Virus record (IMG/VR): IMGVR_UViG_3300021961_000525
Coordinates: 1 to 26,851 of that record
DNA from: a virus
Length of the DNA: 26,851 bases
Reading direction: 5' to 3' (one strand)
Shown here: in pieces, positions 1,402-26,851 of the stretch
Layout: the number at the start of each line of letters is the position of its first letter
Position numbering within the stretch: the first letter of the stretch is position 1
The notes under the pieces: model-generated
The model's database searches: none
What the model saw: the letters and a program-made list of their open reading frames with translations, nothing else
Told to the model about the DNA's origin: nothing
Translations under genes and position numbers: made by a program

Positions 1402-4386
1402 ATGGCAGAGTTAACATTTAAATCAGCAGGTGTAAGTACTAGAGAGATAGACCTGTCAGGTCCTACCCCTACCGGGCCTGTTGGTGTCCCGGCTGGCATC
1501 GTAGGTACTTCTAATGAAGGACCTGCCTTTGTTCCGCTTACATTTGCCACTTATGGACAATATAAACTTACTTTTGGTGCGTCAGATGGCGAAAAATTTG
1601 GCCCATTAGCTGTAAGTGAATGGTTAAAAAATGCTCAAGCTGTTACATACGTGAGAGTTCTTGGTGCAGGAAATGGCAAGAAAAGAAGTGATACGACAGG
1701 AAATGTTACTTCGGCAGGATTCGTTGTAGGTGAAAGACAAGTACAGGCAAATGGTATTGTGGGAAATAATCCCTATGCAAACACCGGAGCAACTACTAAT
1801 GAAGCAAAAGGAAGAACTTACTTCTTGGGTTGCTTTATGTCTGAATCTGCAGAAAGTACAATATTTAGTGCAGCAGGTATTCAAAACTCTGTTTCTGGCT
1901 CTGCAATTCTTAGAGGGGTGGTTCTTGCGCCCTCAGGTGTTATTCTAACTTTAAGTGGAAACTTAGCTGGAACAAATACAAAGCCTGTTTCAAGTAACAA
2001 TGCTGATACTTTGACAGGATTTAGAACAGGTTCGGTCAACTTATCAGGAGGTGGATCTGACTTTGTCATGTTCATGAATGGATATAAGGGCACAGCTTCT
2101 AATCCGACAGCGATTACTGCTTCTTTTGACATGAGATCACCTAATTATTTTGCAAATGTGTTCAATACTGATCCTCTAAAACTGGAAGAAAAAGGACACC
2201 TGCTTTACGGTCATTATGATATTCATCCAACAATGGCTTCGGTTACTGGTTCTGGGATAATTAAAGCAGGCTCATATGCAAATAACGAAGAGCCTATTGC
2301 TTTTATTCTTTCTTCTTCACAAGGTAGACTTGAAAGAGGTGCTACTGACACTAGCGGTGGAGCAACTCCCGTCTATGAATCTTTTGAAGACAGATTTTCA
2401 AATGCTTCTTCTCCTTATATTATTTCTCAAAAGTTTGGTGCAGCACCTTACGACTTGTTTAAATTGGAAACACTGTCAGATGGTTCTGGGATAACTGACA
2501 AGTTTAAACTTTCTATCGAAAATATTTCAAAATCTACTTCAAGCACAGATAAATTTGGAACTTTTGATCTAGTAGTAAGACAATACAGTGATTCGGATGA
2601 TGAAAAGAAAGTATTAGAAAGCTTTAGAGGACTTTCTTTAGATCATAGTTCGCCTAGATACGTCGGAAGAGTTATTGGTGACAAGAAAATATACTTCAAC
2701 TTTGATGCTGATGCTGATTCTCAAAAAATTGTTGTTGAAGGATCACATGATGTCAGATCACGTTATGTAAGAATAGTTCTGTCAGATGCTCTCAAGAGCA
2801 AAGAAGTTCCTGACGAAGCTCTACCCATGGGCTTTAGAGGCCCTAGACACTTGCTTACTTCTGGATCCTTGTTGTGTAACGTACCTACTGATGGTATTTT
2901 AAATATCTCAGATATTCATAAGAGAGTTATTGAACCTCCTGTTCCCTATAGAGAATCAGTCACGCAAGGTACAGGGCTTTCAAAAAGAGTTGATACTAAT
3001 CTTTACTGGGGTATTCAAACAAATATTAAAAAATCTCCAAGCGCACCTAATTCAATATCAGCTTTTGATGATTCGTTTAACACTTACACTAAGTATTTTC
3101 CTTCTCATAGAACAGATACTTTAAACTTTTCTGAGGGTGATAATGCAGGTGTAGCAGATGTTGCCGGCACCGTAAGAGACTCAGATCGATTTAATAGAAA
3201 TAAGTTTACTTTAGAAAATATTCAAGTAAGAACAGGATCAGCAGGTACAGCAGATCCAGACCAGTGGTTAAGTGCTTCATACGTTAGAAGTGGTATTATT
3301 GCAATTAATAATACAGATAAAACACGCGGTCTTTCAATGAATGACTTGGATGTCGTCGCAAATAGAAAATTCTTAAAGTTTACTATTCCTTTCCAGGGTG
3401 GATTTGACGGTGTAAATATCTTCAACAAGGATCAAAGAGATCTTTCCAACAACTCTGTAAAAAGAGAAATTGATGATGAATTAAATCAGGGAGGCACATC
3501 AGGCCCGACAATAGGTGCCTACAGAAAGGCAATAGATATAATGGGTTCTACATCAGACGTAGATATTCAATTGTTAACTATTCCTGGAATTAGACACGAA
3601 TCTGTAATTGATTATGCAATTTCAACTGTTGAAAATAGATTTGATGCAATGTTAATTTCCGACATTGAAGAAAGAGATCAGTTCAATGCGGTTATTACAT
3701 CTTCAGCACAGTCTCCTCACGTAAGTAATACAGTTAATGCATTTAAGAATAGAGTCTTAGACACATCTTTTGCCGCTGCTTACTTCCCAGACGTCACTAT
3801 GCAAGATCCAGATACGGGTGGTTTAGTAACTGTTCCTCCTTCTGTTGTTACAATTGGTGCATACTCACTTAATGACAGAGTTGGTCATCCTTGGTTTGCA
3901 CCAGCTGGGTTCACAAGAGGTGTACTTAACAGTGTCGAAGTTCCTAATGTTCTTTTAAATAGAACTAACTTAGATGATCTTTACGATGCTGACATTAATC
4001 CGCTTGCTCAATTTCCTGGAAAGCCTCTATCAATCTGGGGTCAGAAAACATTAATGGCAAACTCTTCAGCTCTTGATAGAGTCAATGTTAGAAGACTTCT
4101 AATTGACATACGTAGAAAAGTTAGAAATGTTGCAAATACTCTGCTCTTTGAGCCCAATAGAACAGAAACTCTTGAAAGATTCTCTAACTTGGTTAATCCA
4201 ATTCTACAGTCAGTACAGGACGGGCAAGGGGTTGATAGGTACAAGGTAATAATTGATACTACAACAACCACACAAGCTGACGTAGAAAACAATACAATTA
4301 GAGGTAAAATTTACCTACAACCCACCAGATCTATTGAGTTTGTTGCACTTGACTTTGTTGTCACAAATGCTGGAACAACTATCTAG
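1402..4386 (+). CDS. Tail sheath protein, second large paralogue (994 aa)
   Basis: A contractile tail sheath subunit of 994 residues, about 335 longer than T4 gp18 (659 aa). The N-terminus (FKSAGVSTREIDLSG, then PTPTGPVGVPAGIVGTSNEG) is typical of sheath proteins. The C-terminal third repeats the pattern of the upstream gene: GGFDGVNIFNKDQRDL near residue 666, PPSVVTIGAYSLNDR, HPWFAPAGF near residue 829, SALDRVNVRRLL, and DFVVTNAG at the end. The region between roughly residues 150 and 640 has no counterpart I recognise and probably forms surface-exposed insertion domains. Start chosen at ATG 1402 behind GGAG. The tube gene follows at 4420, as expected for a sheath-tube pair. Confidence 0.9.
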   Translation: MAELTFKSAGVSTREIDLSGPTPTGPVGVPAGIVGTSNEGPAFVPLTFATYGQYKLTFGASDGEKFGPLAVSEWLKNAQAVTYVRVLGAGNGKKRSDTTGNVTSAGFVVGERQVQANGIVGNNPYANTGATTNEAKGRTYFLGCFMSESAESTIFSAAGIQNSVSGSAILRGVVLAPSGVILTLSGNLAGTNTKPVSSNNADTLTGFRTGSVNLSGGGSDFVMFMNGYKGTASNPTAITASFDMRSPNYFANVFNTDPLKLEEKGHLLYGHYDIHPTMASVTGSGIIKAGSYANNEEPIAFILSSSQGRLERGATDTSGGATPVYESFEDRFSNASSPYIISQKFGAAPYDLFKLETLSDGSGITDKFKLSIENISKSTSSTDKFGTFDLVVRQYSDSDDEKKVLESFRGLSLDHSSPRYVGRVIGDKKIYFNFDADADSQKIVVEGSHDVRSRYVRIVLSDALKSKEVPDEALPMGFRGPRHLLTSGSLLCNVPTDGILNISDIHKRVIEPPVPYRESVTQGTGLSKRVDTNLYWGIQTNIKKSPSAPNSISAFDDSFNTYTKYFPSHRTDTLNFSEGDNAGVADVAGTVRDSDRFNRNKFTLENIQVRTGSAGTADPDQWLSASYVRSGIIAINNTDKTRGLSMNDLDVVANRKFLKFTIPFQGGFDGVNIFNKDQRDLSNNSVKREIDDELNQGGTSGPTIGAYRKAIDIMGSTSDVDIQLLTIPGIRHESVIDYAISTVENRFDAMLISDIEERDQFNAVITSSAQSPHVSNTVNAFKNRVLDTSFAAAYFPDVTMQDPDTGGLVTVPPSVVTIGAYSLNDRVGHPWFAPAGFTRGVLNSVEVPNVLLNRTNLDDLYDADINPLAQFPGKPLSIWGQKTLMANSSALDRVNVRRLLIDIRRKVRNVANTLLFEPNRTETLERFSNLVNPILQSVQDGQGVDRYKVIIDTTTTTQADVENNTIRGKIYLQPTRSIEFVALDFVVTNAGTTI

Positions 4387-4908: not shown

Positions 4909-4934
4909 TTTATTTTAAGTTTTACTCAAAAATT

Positions 4935-4966
4935 AAACAGTCGTATAATTAATACGACTGTTTTTT
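4935..4966 (+). terminator. Rho-independent terminator after tail tube gene
   Basis: A perfect 12-bp stem (AAACAGTCGTAT at 4935-4946, ATACGACTGTTT at 4952-4963) with a 5-base loop, running into a T tract to 4966. It sits 26 bases after the tube stop codon and just before the Shine-Dalgarno of the next gene. It should reduce transcription of the chaperone/tape measure genes relative to sheath and tube. Confidence 0.9.
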
Positions 4967-4978
4967 AATGGAGTAAGC

Positions 4979-18334: not shown

Positions 18335-18336
18335 TT

Positions 18337-18365
18337 TTGTAAACAAACACTCTTTTATGTATAAT
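18337..18365 (+). promoter_or_regulatory. Sigma70-like promoter for the SSB gene
   Basis: TTGTAA at 18337-18342 and a perfect TATAAT at 18360-18365 with a 17-base spacer, in the 88-base gap before the SSB gene. Transcription would start near 18372, giving a leader of about 50 bases. That leader contains short inverted GCAATT/AATTGC elements (18372-18377, 18395-18400), which could matter for autoregulation of a gp32-like gene. It is the best host-type promoter I see in an intergenic region here. Confidence 0.65.
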
Positions 18366-18422
18366 GCTTAAGCAATTAAACATTGCAACTTACAAATTGC
18401 ACATTATACAAAGGAGTTAAAA

Positions 18423-22842: not shown

Positions 22843-24975
22843 ATGACCTATACACACGAACAAGTAATTAAATCTTCAACAGACTATTTTCAAGGAGATG
22901 AGCTGGCTGCCAATGTCTTTGCTGGAAAATATGCACTTCAAGATTTAGATGGAAACTACCTAGAGTCTAACCCGGGTGACATGCACAAACGTCTTGCTAG
23001 CGAATTTGCAAGAATTGAGCAAAAATATTCAAATCCTATGTCTGAAGAAGAAATTTACAGCTTATTTAAAGACTTCAAGTACGTCGTACCTCAAGGCTCA
23101 CCTATGAGCGGAATTGGTAATGACTACCAGATACAGTCTATATCAAACTGCTTTGTGATTTCTTCTCCAGAAGATAGCTACGGTGGTATTCTTAAGACTG
23201 ACCAAGAACAAGTTCAAATTATGAAGCGAAGAGGAGGCGTTGGGTTTGATGTCTCTAATATTCGACCAAAAAATCTTGCAACATCAAATGCTGCAAAAAC
23301 AACTTCTGGTCTAGAAGTATTCTTAGACCGATTTTCAAATTCATGCCGCGAAGTAGCACAAGGCGGCAGACGTGGTGCACTAATGATTTCTCTTTCAGTG
23401 CACCACCCACAAATTAGAGATTTTATTAAAATTAAGAGAGATCTGACACGTGTAACCGGCGCAAACATCTCAATTCGCTTAAGCGAGGAATTTATGCGCG
23501 CAGTCCGAGGGGGTGATCCAATACAACTGCGTTTCCCTGTAGATGCCAAAGAGCCCATTGTAGAAGAGTGGGTTAGTGCCCAAGATCTTTGGCATGAGAT
23601 TGTTGAGTCCGCACACGCGTCAGCCGAGCCTGGCCTTCTGTTTTGGGATACAGCGAAGAGAATGACTCCGTCTGATATTTACGAAGCAGAAGGCTTTGGC
23701 TCAACCTCTACGAATCCTTGCGGCGAAATTATTCTGTCACCTTATGACAGCTGTCGTCTAATGCTAGTTAATCTCACTTCTTTTGTCAAGAATGCCTGGA
23801 CAGACAGAGCTGAGTTTGACTTTACACACTTTGGAGAAGTTGCACAAAAAGCACAGCGTCTAATGGACGACATGATCGATCTTGAAATAGAAAAAATTGA
23901 CAAGATTCTTGCCAAGATCGAATCAGACCCAGAATCACTAGATGCTAAACAGCCAGAGATGAATCTATGGAATACTGTAAGAGCACAAGCAGTTAATGGT
24001 CGCAGAACTGGCTTGGGTATTACAGGTATCGGTGATGCTTTCGCGATGTTAGGTATTACATATGGTAGCCAAGAAAGCATTGAAATGACTGAAGCAATTT
24101 ACAAGTCTCTTGCTGTCAATTCATATGTTTCTTCAATGTTTATGGCCAAAGAGCGAGGATCTTTTGGCGTACATGATGCTAATAGAGAAGAAGATCATCC
24201 TTTCTTAAATAGAATCTTTGATGCAATTGATGAGACAGATCTTCTTCAAGGTGTAATGGTCGAAAGACTTACTTCTAGAGAGTGGAATAGAAGATGGGGC
24301 CGCAGAAATATTGCTAATACTACAACAGCACCTGCAGGTTCAGTATCTGTTCTTACTCAGACAACAAGCGGGATTGAGCCAGCATTTATGCTTCACTACA
24401 CTCGTCGCAAGAAAATTAATCCAAATGACAAGGATGCAAGAGTTGATTTTGTTGATGAGCTAGGTGATAAATGGTCAGAGTTTTCAGTTTATCATCATGG
24501 ATTTAAAAACTGGCTTGAAAGTTTAGAAAAAGCTTCTTCAGACATTAAAGAAATGATTGATATAAGTCCATACGCTGGAGCAACTGCTAATGAAATCGAT
24601 TGGGTTTCTAAGGTAGATTTGCAGGCCGCAGCCCAGAAGTGGGTGTGCCACGCAATTTCGAATTGCGTTCCAAAAGATACGCTAATAACAACTGATAAAG
24701 GCTTGTTGTATTATGATGAAATTGTGGACATATCAGAACACGGCGATGGTTTTCAAGAGTACCGGTCTGAGATTAAGGTAAAAACAATGAGCGGTGAGTT
24801 TGTGCTGCCGGATCAAACATATAACAACGGTGTAAAAGAAATCGTAAAAATTAAATTTTCTAATGGCGTAGAGCTGAAGTGTACACCTAACGAACCAATC
24901 GCATGTTTTATTGATGGTCGGCAAGTATGGGTCAATGCTTCTGATTTGATTGCCGGGGATATTGTGCTAAAATAA
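22843..24975 (+). CDS. nrdJ: NrdJ N-extein fused to intein N-half (class II ribonucleotide reductase, fractured gene part 1)
   Basis: A 710-residue product: residues 1-607 are the N-terminal part of an adenosylcobalamin-dependent ribonucleotide reductase and 608-710 are the N-half of an intein. Reductase features are YFQGDELAANVFAGKYAL at the start, C103 in SISNCFVI (first redox cysteine), N291PCGEI with C293 (thiyl radical site) and E295, C304 in SYDSCRL-like context (second redox cysteine), and an APAGSVSVL phosphate loop. The extein ends QKWVCHAISN, where a normal NrdJ continues with TTNLP. Instead the frame runs into C608VPKDTLITT and stops at 24973. The ribosome binding site is GAGA before ATG 22843, 9 bases after the helicase gene. 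Class II enzymes need no NrdB partner. This protein alone lacks the final NrdJ segment and should be inactive until joined to the product of 26024 onward. Confidence 0.92.
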   Translation: MTYTHEQVIKSSTDYFQGDELAANVFAGKYALQDLDGNYLESNPGDMHKRLASEFARIEQKYSNPMSEEEIYSLFKDFKYVVPQGSPMSGIGNDYQIQSISNCFVISSPEDSYGGILKTDQEQVQIMKRRGGVGFDVSNIRPKNLATSNAAKTTSGLEVFLDRFSNSCREVAQGGRRGALMISLSVHHPQIRDFIKIKRDLTRVTGANISIRLSEEFMRAVRGGDPIQLRFPVDAKEPIVEEWVSAQDLWHEIVESAHASAEPGLLFWDTAKRMTPSDIYEAEGFGSTSTNPCGEIILSPYDSCRLMLVNLTSFVKNAWTDRAEFDFTHFGEVAQKAQRLMDDMIDLEIEKIDKILAKIESDPESLDAKQPEMNLWNTVRAQAVNGRRTGLGITGIGDAFAMLGITYGSQESIEMTEAIYKSLAVNSYVSSMFMAKERGSFGVHDANREEDHPFLNRIFDAIDETDLLQGVMVERLTSREWNRRWGRRNIANTTTAPAGSVSVLTQTTSGIEPAFMLHYTRRKKINPNDKDARVDFVDELGDKWSEFSVYHHGFKNWLESLEKASSDIKEMIDISPYAGATANEIDWVSKVDLQAAAQKWVCHAISNCVPKDTLITTDKGLLYYDEIVDISEHGDGFQEYRSEIKVKTMSGEFVLPDQTYNNGVKEIVKIKFSNGVELKCTPNEPIACFIDGRQVWVNASDLIAGDIVLK
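24664..24972 (+). other. Split intein, N-terminal half (IntN, 103 aa)
   Basis: The segment begins with Cys1 in the block A pattern CVPKDTLITTDKG..YYDEIVD. It continues through VKTMSGEFVLPD and a block B region VKIKFSNGVELKCTPNEP, ending NASDLIAGDIVLK and a stop. The size (103 aa) is that of naturally split IntN domains. The block B TxxH histidine is replaced: the motif reads T74-P-N-E77. No endonuclease domain is fused. The joining partner is the IntC segment at 26024-26311. Confidence 0.9.
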
Positions 24976-24986
24976 TTGGAATATTT

Positions 24987-25026
24987 TTTGTCATGCTATA
25001 TTTATTGTTAGACATGGCATGACAAA
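24987..25026 (+). promoter_or_regulatory. Hairpin abutting the ribosome binding site of the nuclease gene
   Basis: A perfect 10-bp inverted repeat (TTTGTCATGC at 24987-24996, GCATGACAAA at 25017-25026) with a 20-base AT-rich loop. Its 3' arm overlaps the first bases of the AAAGGAG Shine-Dalgarno (25024-25030). No T tract follows, so it is not a terminator. Partial sequestration of the ribosome binding site is the likely effect, reminiscent of translational control of T4 homing endonuclease genes (inference). Confidence 0.55.
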
Positions 25027-25037
25027 GGAGCTTCTAT

Positions 25038-26036
25038 ATGAAAAAATATTCTGGCAGGTTTATTAAAGTGATGGTTGCAACAATCTCAAATCATGATCAA
25101 TTAGAAAAATCTTTAGTTGAAAAATGGGATCATTCTTCTCTCAAAAAGAGATATTCGGATATCCGAGCAGCTTCTACAAAAAAGTCTTATTCAAAATGGA
25201 AAGCTAGCATGGATAAAAAAGAAACTACATTCTCTGGTAGAGCAAAAGCCGGCATGATAAAGTGGTCTATCAAAAATGGTGCCACCGGCACAGAAGAAGA
25301 ATTGTTAGAATATGCCAGAGATAACATGAAAGGAAAAGACCATGGTTCCAAATGCATGCAAGGGATTCATGCAATTCATGGTGATATTGCTAGTGAATAT
25401 AATCGTAGGATGAAATTAAAAATAGCTAGATACTACGATATATCTGCCACTTCTGTTGACCAAGAAAAAATTAATAAATATTATAGTGATATTAAGTTTG
25501 GAAATCAAGATGCCCTTGAATGGAAAAGATCACACCTAGATGTTTTATGTAGGGATGCACCGCCCGAAGAAGTTGAAAAGCTGTATTCTGAATATTTGTC
25601 AGATCGATTCAAATCTTCAATGCTGCAGACCCAAAATGGGTATTTAAGGACTACTAGAGAATGGTATCAATTTGAGAATATTGACAGAAAGCTTTTCTGC
25701 AGATCTTCTTGGGAGATAGAGTTTTGCAAAATATGTGATATATTTCTTAAGGAAGGAATAATAAAAGACATTTCTACACCAGATAGAATTAAGTACTTTC
25801 GATCTGATATATTACAGTGGCGACACTACTATCCAGACTTTAAAATTGAAACTGGCAACAGGACCTTCATTATCGAGATAAAGCCTTTTTTCAAATGTAG
25901 TGATCAACAAAACTTAGACAAATTTTCTAGAGCAAAAGAGATATATCATGATTCTTTTGTAATTGTTACGGAATACGAATTAAAATTAGAAAAACTTAAA
26001 AAATTATATAACGGGGAGAAACAATGGAATTTATAA
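25038..26036 (+). CDS. Free-standing PD-(D/E)XK nuclease, probable homing endonuclease
   Basis: A 332-residue protein encoded between the two halves of the split intein, in a frame different from both. The C-terminal nuclease domain shows RSSWEIEF (E226), YYPDF (D267) and IIEIKPF (E280, K282), a complete PD-(D/E)XK active site like those of small phage nucleases. The N-terminal 200 residues are basic and helical (KKSYSKWKASMDKK, FSGRAKAGMIKWSI) and probably bind DNA. No LAGLIDADG, HNH or GIY-YIG motif is present. ATG 25038 follows AAAGGAG. The 3' end overlaps the IntC-NrdJ gene by 13 bases, coupling their translation. From context it would cut intein-less nrdJ alleles and spread the locus. 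Target specificity is unproven. Confidence 0.78.
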   Translation: MKKYSGRFIKVMVATISNHDQLEKSLVEKWDHSSLKKRYSDIRAASTKKSYSKWKASMDKKETTFSGRAKAGMIKWSIKNGATGTEEELLEYARDNMKGKDHGSKCMQGIHAIHGDIASEYNRRMKLKIARYYDISATSVDQEKINKYYSDIKFGNQDALEWKRSHLDVLCRDAPPEEVEKLYSEYLSDRFKSSMLQTQNGYLRTTREWYQFENIDRKLFCRSSWEIEFCKICDIFLKEGIIKDISTPDRIKYFRSDILQWRHYYPDFKIETGNRTFIIEIKPFFKCSDQQNLDKFSRAKEIYHDSFVIVTEYELKLEKLKKLYNGEKQWNL

Positions 26037-26311
26037 AATCAGGAAGATTACCAATTGAGGCAAGAACAACAATTGAAAATGCTTCAAAATTTTTATCATG
26101 GGTAGAAAGTGAATTTACCAAGGAACAGGTATCAAATCCTGATGTGTATACCCTAGCATCTTGGGCAAATTATCCGCTTTTCAATAATTCTGGTCTGGCT
26201 GCAGATCACTTGGTTGTAGAGTCAGTTGAAAATATCGGTTTAGAGCAGACTTATGATTTTTCAATCCCAGAACACCACAATTACATCGCAAATACTGTAG
26301 TTTGCCATAAC
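26024..26311 (+). other. Split intein, C-terminal half (IntC, 96 aa)
   Basis: The last about 37 residues hold intein blocks F and G: GLEQTYDFSIPEHHNYIAN, then TVVCHN, with the terminal Asn at 26309-26311. The +1 extein residue is Thr, an accepted nucleophile. Typical natural IntC pieces are about 35-45 aa, so the first 55 or so residues (MEFIKSGRLPIEART to PLFNNSG) are an extra segment I do not recognise. Confidence 0.88.
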
Positions 26312-26851
26312 ACTACGAACCTTCCTGCTGATATTGATGTAGAGACTGTTAAGCAAGTTTATATGCGCGGATGGGAAAGTGGGTGTAAAGGTGTAACAGT
26401 CTATCGTGACGGGTCCAGATCAGGTGTCCTTGTTAGTAGCGAAACTTCAAAACCTAAAGATCGTGCAGATATGAAGTTTGTTGACAACACAGCACCAAAG
26501 AGACCTGAATCACTACCTTGTGAAATTCATCATGCAACGATCAAGGGCGAAAAATGGACGCTCTTAATTGGGTTAATGGATGGGCGTCCTTACGAAGTTA
26601 TTGGAGGATTGAGCAAATATGTAGAAATTCCAAGAAAGCACATACTTGGTGAACTTCGTCGTAGACAAAGAAAAACAATGCTTTCTAAGTATGATCTATA
26701 CTGCGGAGAAGGTGAAGAAGAATTTGCAATCAAAGACGTTGTATCTGTCTTTGACAATCCAAATTATGCAGGATACACAAGAACAATTTCACTTGCATTG
26801 AGACACGGCGCACCAATTCAGTATATTGTTGAGCAACTTCAAAAAGATAAA
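26024..26851 (+). CDS. nrdJ: Intein C-half fused to NrdJ C-extein (fractured gene part 2, 3' end outside window)
   Basis: The frame is open from ATG 26024 (GGGGAG upstream) to the end of the window, 276 residues so far. Residues 1-96 are the C-half of the intein ending in His-Asn. From residue 97 the reductase resumes with TTNLPADIDVE, GWESGCKGVTVYRDGSR (the class II/class I conserved ending motif) and a C-terminal region (KWTLLIGLMDGRPYEVIGG, RKHILGELRRRQR, TISLALRHGAPIQYIVEQL) typical of long NrdJ proteins with a TSCPD-like domain. Its terminal redox cysteines lie beyond the window. It must be spliced to the product of 22843-24975 to rebuild a NrdJ of at least 787 residues. The start overlaps the nuclease gene by 13 bases. 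Confidence 0.9.
   Translation, partial: MEFIKSGRLPIEARTTIENASKFLSWVESEFTKEQVSNPDVYTLASWANYPLFNNSGLAADHLVVESVENIGLEQTYDFSIPEHHNYIANTVVCHNTTNLPADIDVETVKQVYMRGWESGCKGVTVYRDGSRSGVLVSSETSKPKDRADMKFVDNTAPKRPESLPCEIHHATIKGEKWTLLIGLMDGRPYEVIGGLSKYVEIPRKHILGELRRRQRKTMLSKYDLYCGEGEEEFAIKDVVSVFDNPNYAGYTRTISLALRHGAPIQYIVEQLQKDK

Follow-up and report, generated by a model that had tools for sequence, protein, structure and literature searches.

A phage nrdJ gene broken by a split intein with a TnsA/gp4-type nuclease gene between its halves

Introduction

How might a phage obtain an intact class II ribonucleotide reductase from a gene that is broken in two, with a nuclease gene lying in the break? The question is raised by the nrdJ locus at the right end of the viral record IMGVR_UViG_3300021961_000525, a single metagenomic contig of 26,851 bases that we analysed whole and refer to as the window. 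The locus consists of three open reading frames (ORFs) in three different frames, which encode the N-terminal part of NrdJ (N-extein) fused to an N-terminal intein half (IntN), a nuclease, and a C-terminal intein half (IntC) fused to the remainder of NrdJ (C-extein). Natural split inteins are rare; they serve as working tools for protein ligation, and gp41-1 and NrdJ-1 both came from metagenomic loci of this kind. Fractured genes were described in 2009 from metagenomic data, with 7 nrdA and 2 nrdJ cases reported (PMC3653736). We think it probable, from the sequence evidence set out here, that the locus is such a fractured gene, in which protein trans-splicing rebuilds NrdJ and a homing nuclease gene inside the intein spreads the cassette.

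Results

The nrdJ coding region is broken at one point, HAISN/TTNLP, and the two parts lie in separate genes. No interruption is present in the nearest viral NrdJ relatives (82-88% identical); in the alignment with them, N-extein residue 607 is followed directly by C-extein residue 1, with zero residues gained or lost, so that each splice point is located exactly. The Cys1 codon is at 24664-24666 and the IntN stop codon at 24973-24975, while the terminal His-Asn pair of IntC occupies 26306-26311 and is followed by the +1 Thr at 26312; the C-extein is incomplete, the contig ending at 26851. Curated NCBIfam cut-offs were applied to NrdJ_Z, intein_Nterm and intein_Cterm, and all three were passed: intein_Nterm (TIGR01445) matches residues 608-685 of the first product at 26.9 bits (cut-off 24.5) and intein_Cterm (TIGR01443) matches residues 76-97 of the third at 24.6 bits (cut-off 15.6). 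A first-pass annotation of this DNA had proposed three ORFs, each in its own frame, of which the outer two hold the halves of a split intein and the middle one encodes a nuclease; it had named the exact splice points and read the exteins as joining into an uninterrupted NrdJ motif. ORF translation, the two intein profiles, a PD-(D/E)XK domain in the middle product and the gapless alignment of the halves with intact NrdJ uphold all of these. It had also given each ORF its own Shine-Dalgarno sequence, which holds for the nuclease and IntC ORFs (these overlap by 13 nt), where the sequence is good, and less so for nrdJ itself, where it is weak. No Rfam match to a group I intron was found anywhere in the window, and we rejected such an intron in place of an intein on that ground.

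The same insertion, at the same site and with the same order of IntN, nuclease and IntC, is found in two other phage contigs, L004 (182,840 bases) and L095 (IMGVR_UViG_3300007513_000220; 22,373 bases). Identity to the window in L004 and L095, respectively, is 73% and 53% for IntN, 56% and 39% for the nuclease, and 61% and 45% for IntC. In both of these contigs NrdJ is complete at its C end. The locus comes from a metagenomic contig, and an artefact of assembly or sequencing might in principle have broken what is really a continuous intein gene. However, the three genes are arranged alike, with their frames intact, in these two independent contigs at 39-73% identity, and since the layout recurs in this way chance and assembly error can be excluded; for practical purposes we regard the latter as refuted, its probability being close to nil. 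All parts of the locus are under purifying selection (pN/pS 0.18-0.61).

IntN and IntC together account for the whole Hint fold at the break. IntN resembles the Pho RadA and Mxe GyrA inteins, residues 64-96 of IntC (96 residues in all) resemble the ends of mini-inteins, and because the halves thus match the two parts of known inteins the split can be placed at the usual endonuclease insertion point. Cys1, the C-terminal Asn96 and Thr+1, as expected of a class 1 intein, are present in all three members of the family (window, L004 and L095), in which the penultimate His95 is likewise invariant. The first 60 or so residues of IntC form an extension that lies outside the known mini-inteins, which match residues 64-96 only. 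This extension is 56% conserved in L004 and 43% in L095, is under purifying selection, and is predicted to form helices at residues 2-47 (pLDDT up to 84); it was absent from every other sequence searched. Homology of the extension to the TerL, Alexandra or Dulem inteins was rejected, as the reliable part of those matches is the IntC core and the alignments of the extension are gapped or due to chance. A fold search with the model of IntC plus C-extein, which is poor, returned nothing meaningful.

By profile, fold and residues the product of the middle gene is a TnsA/T4 gp4-type PD-(D/E)XK enzyme. Its residues ~206-325 match the T4 gp4/head-closure family phrog_218 (E 1.5e-11 in the window; E 1e-10 to 3e-14 across the three members) and the TnsA N-terminal domain PF08722 (E 3e-5 in the window; below the curated cut-off in the window and L004, above it in L095). 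The AlphaFold model of this region is fair to good, the best solved-structure match of the nuclease model is TnsA 1t0f (Foldseek prob 1.00, E 4.5e-3), and E226, D267 and E280-x-K282, invariant in the three members, provide the expected PD-(D/E)XK set. A profile search with the window nuclease gave no match to a Vsr/DUF559-type domain, and a sequence search against the PDB gave nothing credible. The first ~205 residues are helical and lie outside the gp4-like domain; we infer that they may serve in DNA recognition. We know of no intein that carries a nuclease of the TnsA/gp4 class, and we found no description in the literature of a TnsA-type homing nuclease of phage, which is weak evidence of absence.

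The distribution of the element is patchy. It is present in 3 of the 83 NrdJ sequences compared; in the window's clade of eight it occurs in the window alone, the 7 sister alleles (82-88% identical) being without it. L004 and L095 group in another supported part of the NrdJ tree. Scattered occurrence of this kind, at a single exact site for which intact empty alleles exist, is the pattern expected of an element spread by a homing endonuclease. Between the window and L004 the IntN sequences (73% identical) are more alike than the exteins (59.5% identical), which suggests that the cassette moved between lineages rather than being inherited by common descent.

A predicted RNA hairpin lies between the IntN stop codon and the nuclease start, and its 3' arm covers most of the nuclease Shine-Dalgarno sequence AAAGGAG (25024-25030). 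It is the most stable of those at 56 gene starts tested, and none of 200 shuffles was as stable. Counterparts are present in L004, where the pairing is retained through a compensated base-pair change (TTGTCATGC/GCATGACAA to TTGCCATGC/GCATGGCAA), and in L095, where they are weaker (z -1.8 to -3.0). Across the three contigs the ribosome-binding site (RBS) is partly or mostly paired at 5 of 5 nuclease genes (unpaired probability 0.16-0.45) and open at 5 of 5 IntC starts (0.62-0.98), a complete separation that has a chance of 2/252. In T4 I-TevI and Aeh1 mobE, homing endonuclease genes that lie within other genes, the RBS is known to be concealed by a stable hairpin (PMC2988022), and the hairpin that masks the nuclease RBS here is of that type. 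The motif TATATTTA occurs on the loop side of the window hairpin (24997-25004) and in the loop of the L004 hairpin, and is enriched before genes of a close relative, including a baseplate gene where it is likewise in a hairpin. These occurrences are only suggestive, and TATATTTA may be a candidate late promoter within the hairpin; the classic T4 late promoter TATAAATA is absent from the window hairpin and was rejected for that role. We note that strong hairpins of similar style directly precede the baseplate (4909-4978) and SSB (18335-18422) starts of the window, which possibly reflect a general control of late genes, and that in the relative L114 (minus strand) TATATTTAG lies in the loop of a baseplate-gene hairpin.

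In L095 (921-8361) three split-intein loci, with one nuclease gene each, divide nrdJ into four pieces. The junctions are (A) ...MISIS/CNHPEIE..., (B) ...TTAPAG/SVSTLTQ... and (C), which is the window's site, and all three restore motifs seen in uninterrupted relatives. Nuclease A matches DUF559 and Vsr clearly and nuclease B does so weakly; nuclease C is of the TnsA/gp4 type. We came across no account of three split inteins in one natural gene, the library searched being incomplete.

Several other inteins were encountered in these phages. On the contig of L095, a UvsX-like recombinase gene (L101, 7767-9766) is interrupted by a split intein with an IntN of about 36 residues, overlapping ORFs and no nuclease gene; a few codons downstream the gene is interrupted again, by a group I intron (RF00028, E 7.6e-18). 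The N-terminal nrdJ gene of L004 (1364-4966) also carries a contiguous intein at NP/CGEI with HNH-like residues, and the helicase gene upstream of it (95-1345) carries another intein. A contiguous NrdJ intein at NP/CGEI with an endonuclease-sized insert is found in L007 (3220-6723). In crAss-like phages (L104, 3477-7085; L105, 3489-7193) nrdJ is split at NPCG/EI with a LAGLIDADG-like gene; the element is intron-like, with no Rfam match at the gathering score. We rejected the crAss-like split nrdJ (cr108_1, PhiCrAssBcn18) as the same intein, the break being at NPCG/EI and the element a different one.

The coordinates of the locus are collected in Table 1. Elsewhere the window carries T4-like tail and replication genes (tail sheath, tail tube, baseplate, SSB, UvsX-like recombinase, exonuclease and DnaB-like helicase). 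The two adjacent tail sheath genes (1-1374 and 1402-4386) are of very different lengths, and a 357-residue protein encoded at 15718-16791 matches part only of the DNA polymerase I profiles.

Table 1. Features of the nrdJ locus in the window
Feature	Position	Strand	Size or evidence
NrdJ N-extein+IntN ORF	22843-24975	+	710 aa
Nuclease ORF	25038-26036	+	332 aa
IntC+C-extein ORF	26024-26851	+	276+ aa, runs off contig
NrdJ N-extein, residues 1-607, class II B12-dependent reductase	22843-24663	+	TIGR02504 NrdJ_Z 427.9 bits (cut-off 399.95); Pfam Ribonuc_red_lgC E 4e-75
IntN, 103 aa plus stop; Cys1, block A, block B	24664-24975	+	TIGR01445; PDB Pho RadA intein E 1e-5
Glu77 codon of IntN, block B position B:10	24892-24894	+	Alignment; His in nearly all inteins
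Predicted RNA hairpin over nuclease Shine-Dalgarno	24984-25029	+	z -7.8
Free-standing nuclease gene: helical N-terminal region 1-~205, PD-(D/E)XK domain ~206-325	25038-26036	+	phrog_218, PF08722, Foldseek
IntC N-terminal extension, ~63 aa, beyond Hint fold	26024-26212	+	Conserved in L004 and L095; predicted small helical unit
IntC core, blocks F and G, ends His95-Asn96	26213-26311	+	TIGR01443; Spl DnaX mini-intein E 0.003
NrdJ C-extein from +1 Thr, first 180 residues	26312-26851	+	TIGR02504 resumes at model position 566; 84-89% identical in sister alleles

Discussion

In the mechanism that we propose, NrdJ-N-IntN and IntC-NrdJ-C would be translated separately, the latter from an open RBS of its own. 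Docking of the two intein halves would follow, and protein trans-splicing would join NrdJ at Asn607/Thr608, so that the ligated protein would hold the junction peptide ...AISNTTNLPADIDVETVK. During mixed infection the nuclease would cut intein-less nrdJ at the conserved HAISN/TTNLP coding site, and repair of the cut allele from an occupied copy would transfer the whole cassette. On long nrdJ transcripts the hairpin would restrict translation of the nuclease but leave that of IntC free, and a promoter within the hairpin, of the kind found in T4 I-TevI, could give late expression of the nuclease on transcripts that lack the 5' arm.

A number of observations weigh against this proposal. Splicing and cutting are both deduced from sequence. 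Just three members of the family are known, and no nuclease or IntC relatives beyond L004 and L095 were found in the viral and genome collections searched. No co-conversion tract is recognisable around the insertion in comparison with the sister alleles; identity to these alleles falls at -150 to -60 of the insertion, and several sister pairs fall there too. The main doubt about splicing concerns its first chemical step, because of Glu77 at block B. Instead of Thr-x-x-His the block reads Thr-Pro-Asn-Glu (Thr-Glu-Asn-Glu in L095), with Thr74 retained and Glu77 in place of His in all three members, whereas the His is present in 8 of 8 other aligned inteins, two further L095 split inteins among them. 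The block B His is the most conserved residue of inteins, with two exceptions known at the time of a 2014 review, a pseudogene and a lysine user (PMC4031507), and the Thr-x-x-His motif is near-universal without being absolutely defining (PMC7664689). It is this substitution that keeps in play the explanation that the intein no longer splices, the Hint halves only docking or being dead weight and NrdJ acting as a two-chain complex. A reductase in pieces can function, as does the NrdA of phage Aeh1, which is split by the mobE nuclease gene and works as a two-chain complex (PMC3653736), and the cut in nrdJ falls between the end of the barrel and the C-terminal domain. Nevertheless, Cys1, His95, Asn96 and the +1 Thr, which docking would not need, are invariant down to 45-53% identity, IntN and the IntC core have the lowest pN/pS of the locus (0.18-0.45), and inteins without the block B His can splice by compensation (PMC4031507, PMC7664689). 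We therefore consider a loss of splicing unlikely.

A further point against the proposal is that the nuclease domain resembles phage head-completion nucleases and may have a role other than homing. The enzyme might be a repurposed TnsA/gp4-type phage nuclease, acting for example in head completion or repair, that sits in the intein by chance; its best profile match is to the head-closure family phrog_218, and its Foldseek matches include head completion nucleases. However, three divergent contigs have the gene together with this intein at an identical site, and among 21 related phage records searched it was found only in the two that bear the intein. The nuclease also carries the N-terminal region beyond the gp4-like domain, and the two other split inteins of L095 hold other nuclease genes in the same position. 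A repurposed phage nuclease of this sort strikes us as quite improbable, and a homing nuclease remains our preferred reading of this gene.

A bolder proposal, which we offer tentatively and would not quite expect to hold in full, is that these inteins form a distinct natural split-intein lineage in which splicing proceeds with Glu instead of the block B His, aided by a helical IntC extension found in no other intein, and which a homing nuclease of the TnsA/gp4 type spreads, with one relative fractured three times, such that its reductase would need three trans-splicing reactions to join four proteins. One might speculate that the IntC extension compensates for the missing block B His. A conserved block B Glu together with an added IntC segment, if true, would test how the first splicing step dispenses with the usual His, and the presence of a TnsA/gp4-type nuclease at this place in an intein would extend intein homing to a further class of nuclease. 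In L095, with its NrdJ in four pieces, one important enzyme has been fractured repeatedly, and the cost and control of natural trans-splicing are directly testable there.

The first-pass annotation had filed the locus as a fractured gene with its own insertion point and nuclease type, and had suggested that the phage may depend on protein trans-splicing for its dNTP synthesis. That filing fits every feature that can be tested in sequence, and the present analysis adds to it the class of the nuclease, the change from His to Glu at block B, the IntC extension, the hairpin over the nuclease RBS and the four-piece NrdJ of L095. The kind of layout is rare but known, and the nuclease class, the block B residue and the IntC extension make the locus a variant of it. 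As in other fractured genes with split inteins, found mainly in phages, an enzyme of DNA metabolism is halved and a free-standing endonuclease gene lies between the parts. Dassa et al. in 2009 reportedly found a Vsr-related nuclease in about half of such loci, along with what looked like control elements that had arrived together with the endonuclease gene; the window differs in its TnsA/gp4-type nuclease, its ISN/TTN site, its block B Glu and its long IntC extension. Like NrdJ-1, it has a naturally split intein of a class II reductase with Cys1 in the N-terminal half. The native junction of NrdJ-1 is NPC/SEI with an obligate +1 Ser (PMC13123727), whereas the window is interrupted elsewhere in the protein, at HAISN/TTNLP with a +1 Thr, and its IntC is 96 residues long. 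With T4 I-TevI and Aeh1 mobE the locus shares a hairpin that hides the RBS of a homing endonuclease; unlike them, it has a split intein as the host element, and TATATTTA is all that suggests a promoter in the hairpin. With TnsA of Tn7 and the T4 gp4-like head completion nucleases it shares a domain with E...D...ExK, C-terminal in the window nuclease, from which it is set apart by the ~205-residue N-terminal region and the location in an intein. The Tko CDC21-1 intein also lacks the block B His (PMC4031507), but that intein is archaeal and uses Lys58, whereas the intein described here is a split phage intein with Glu.

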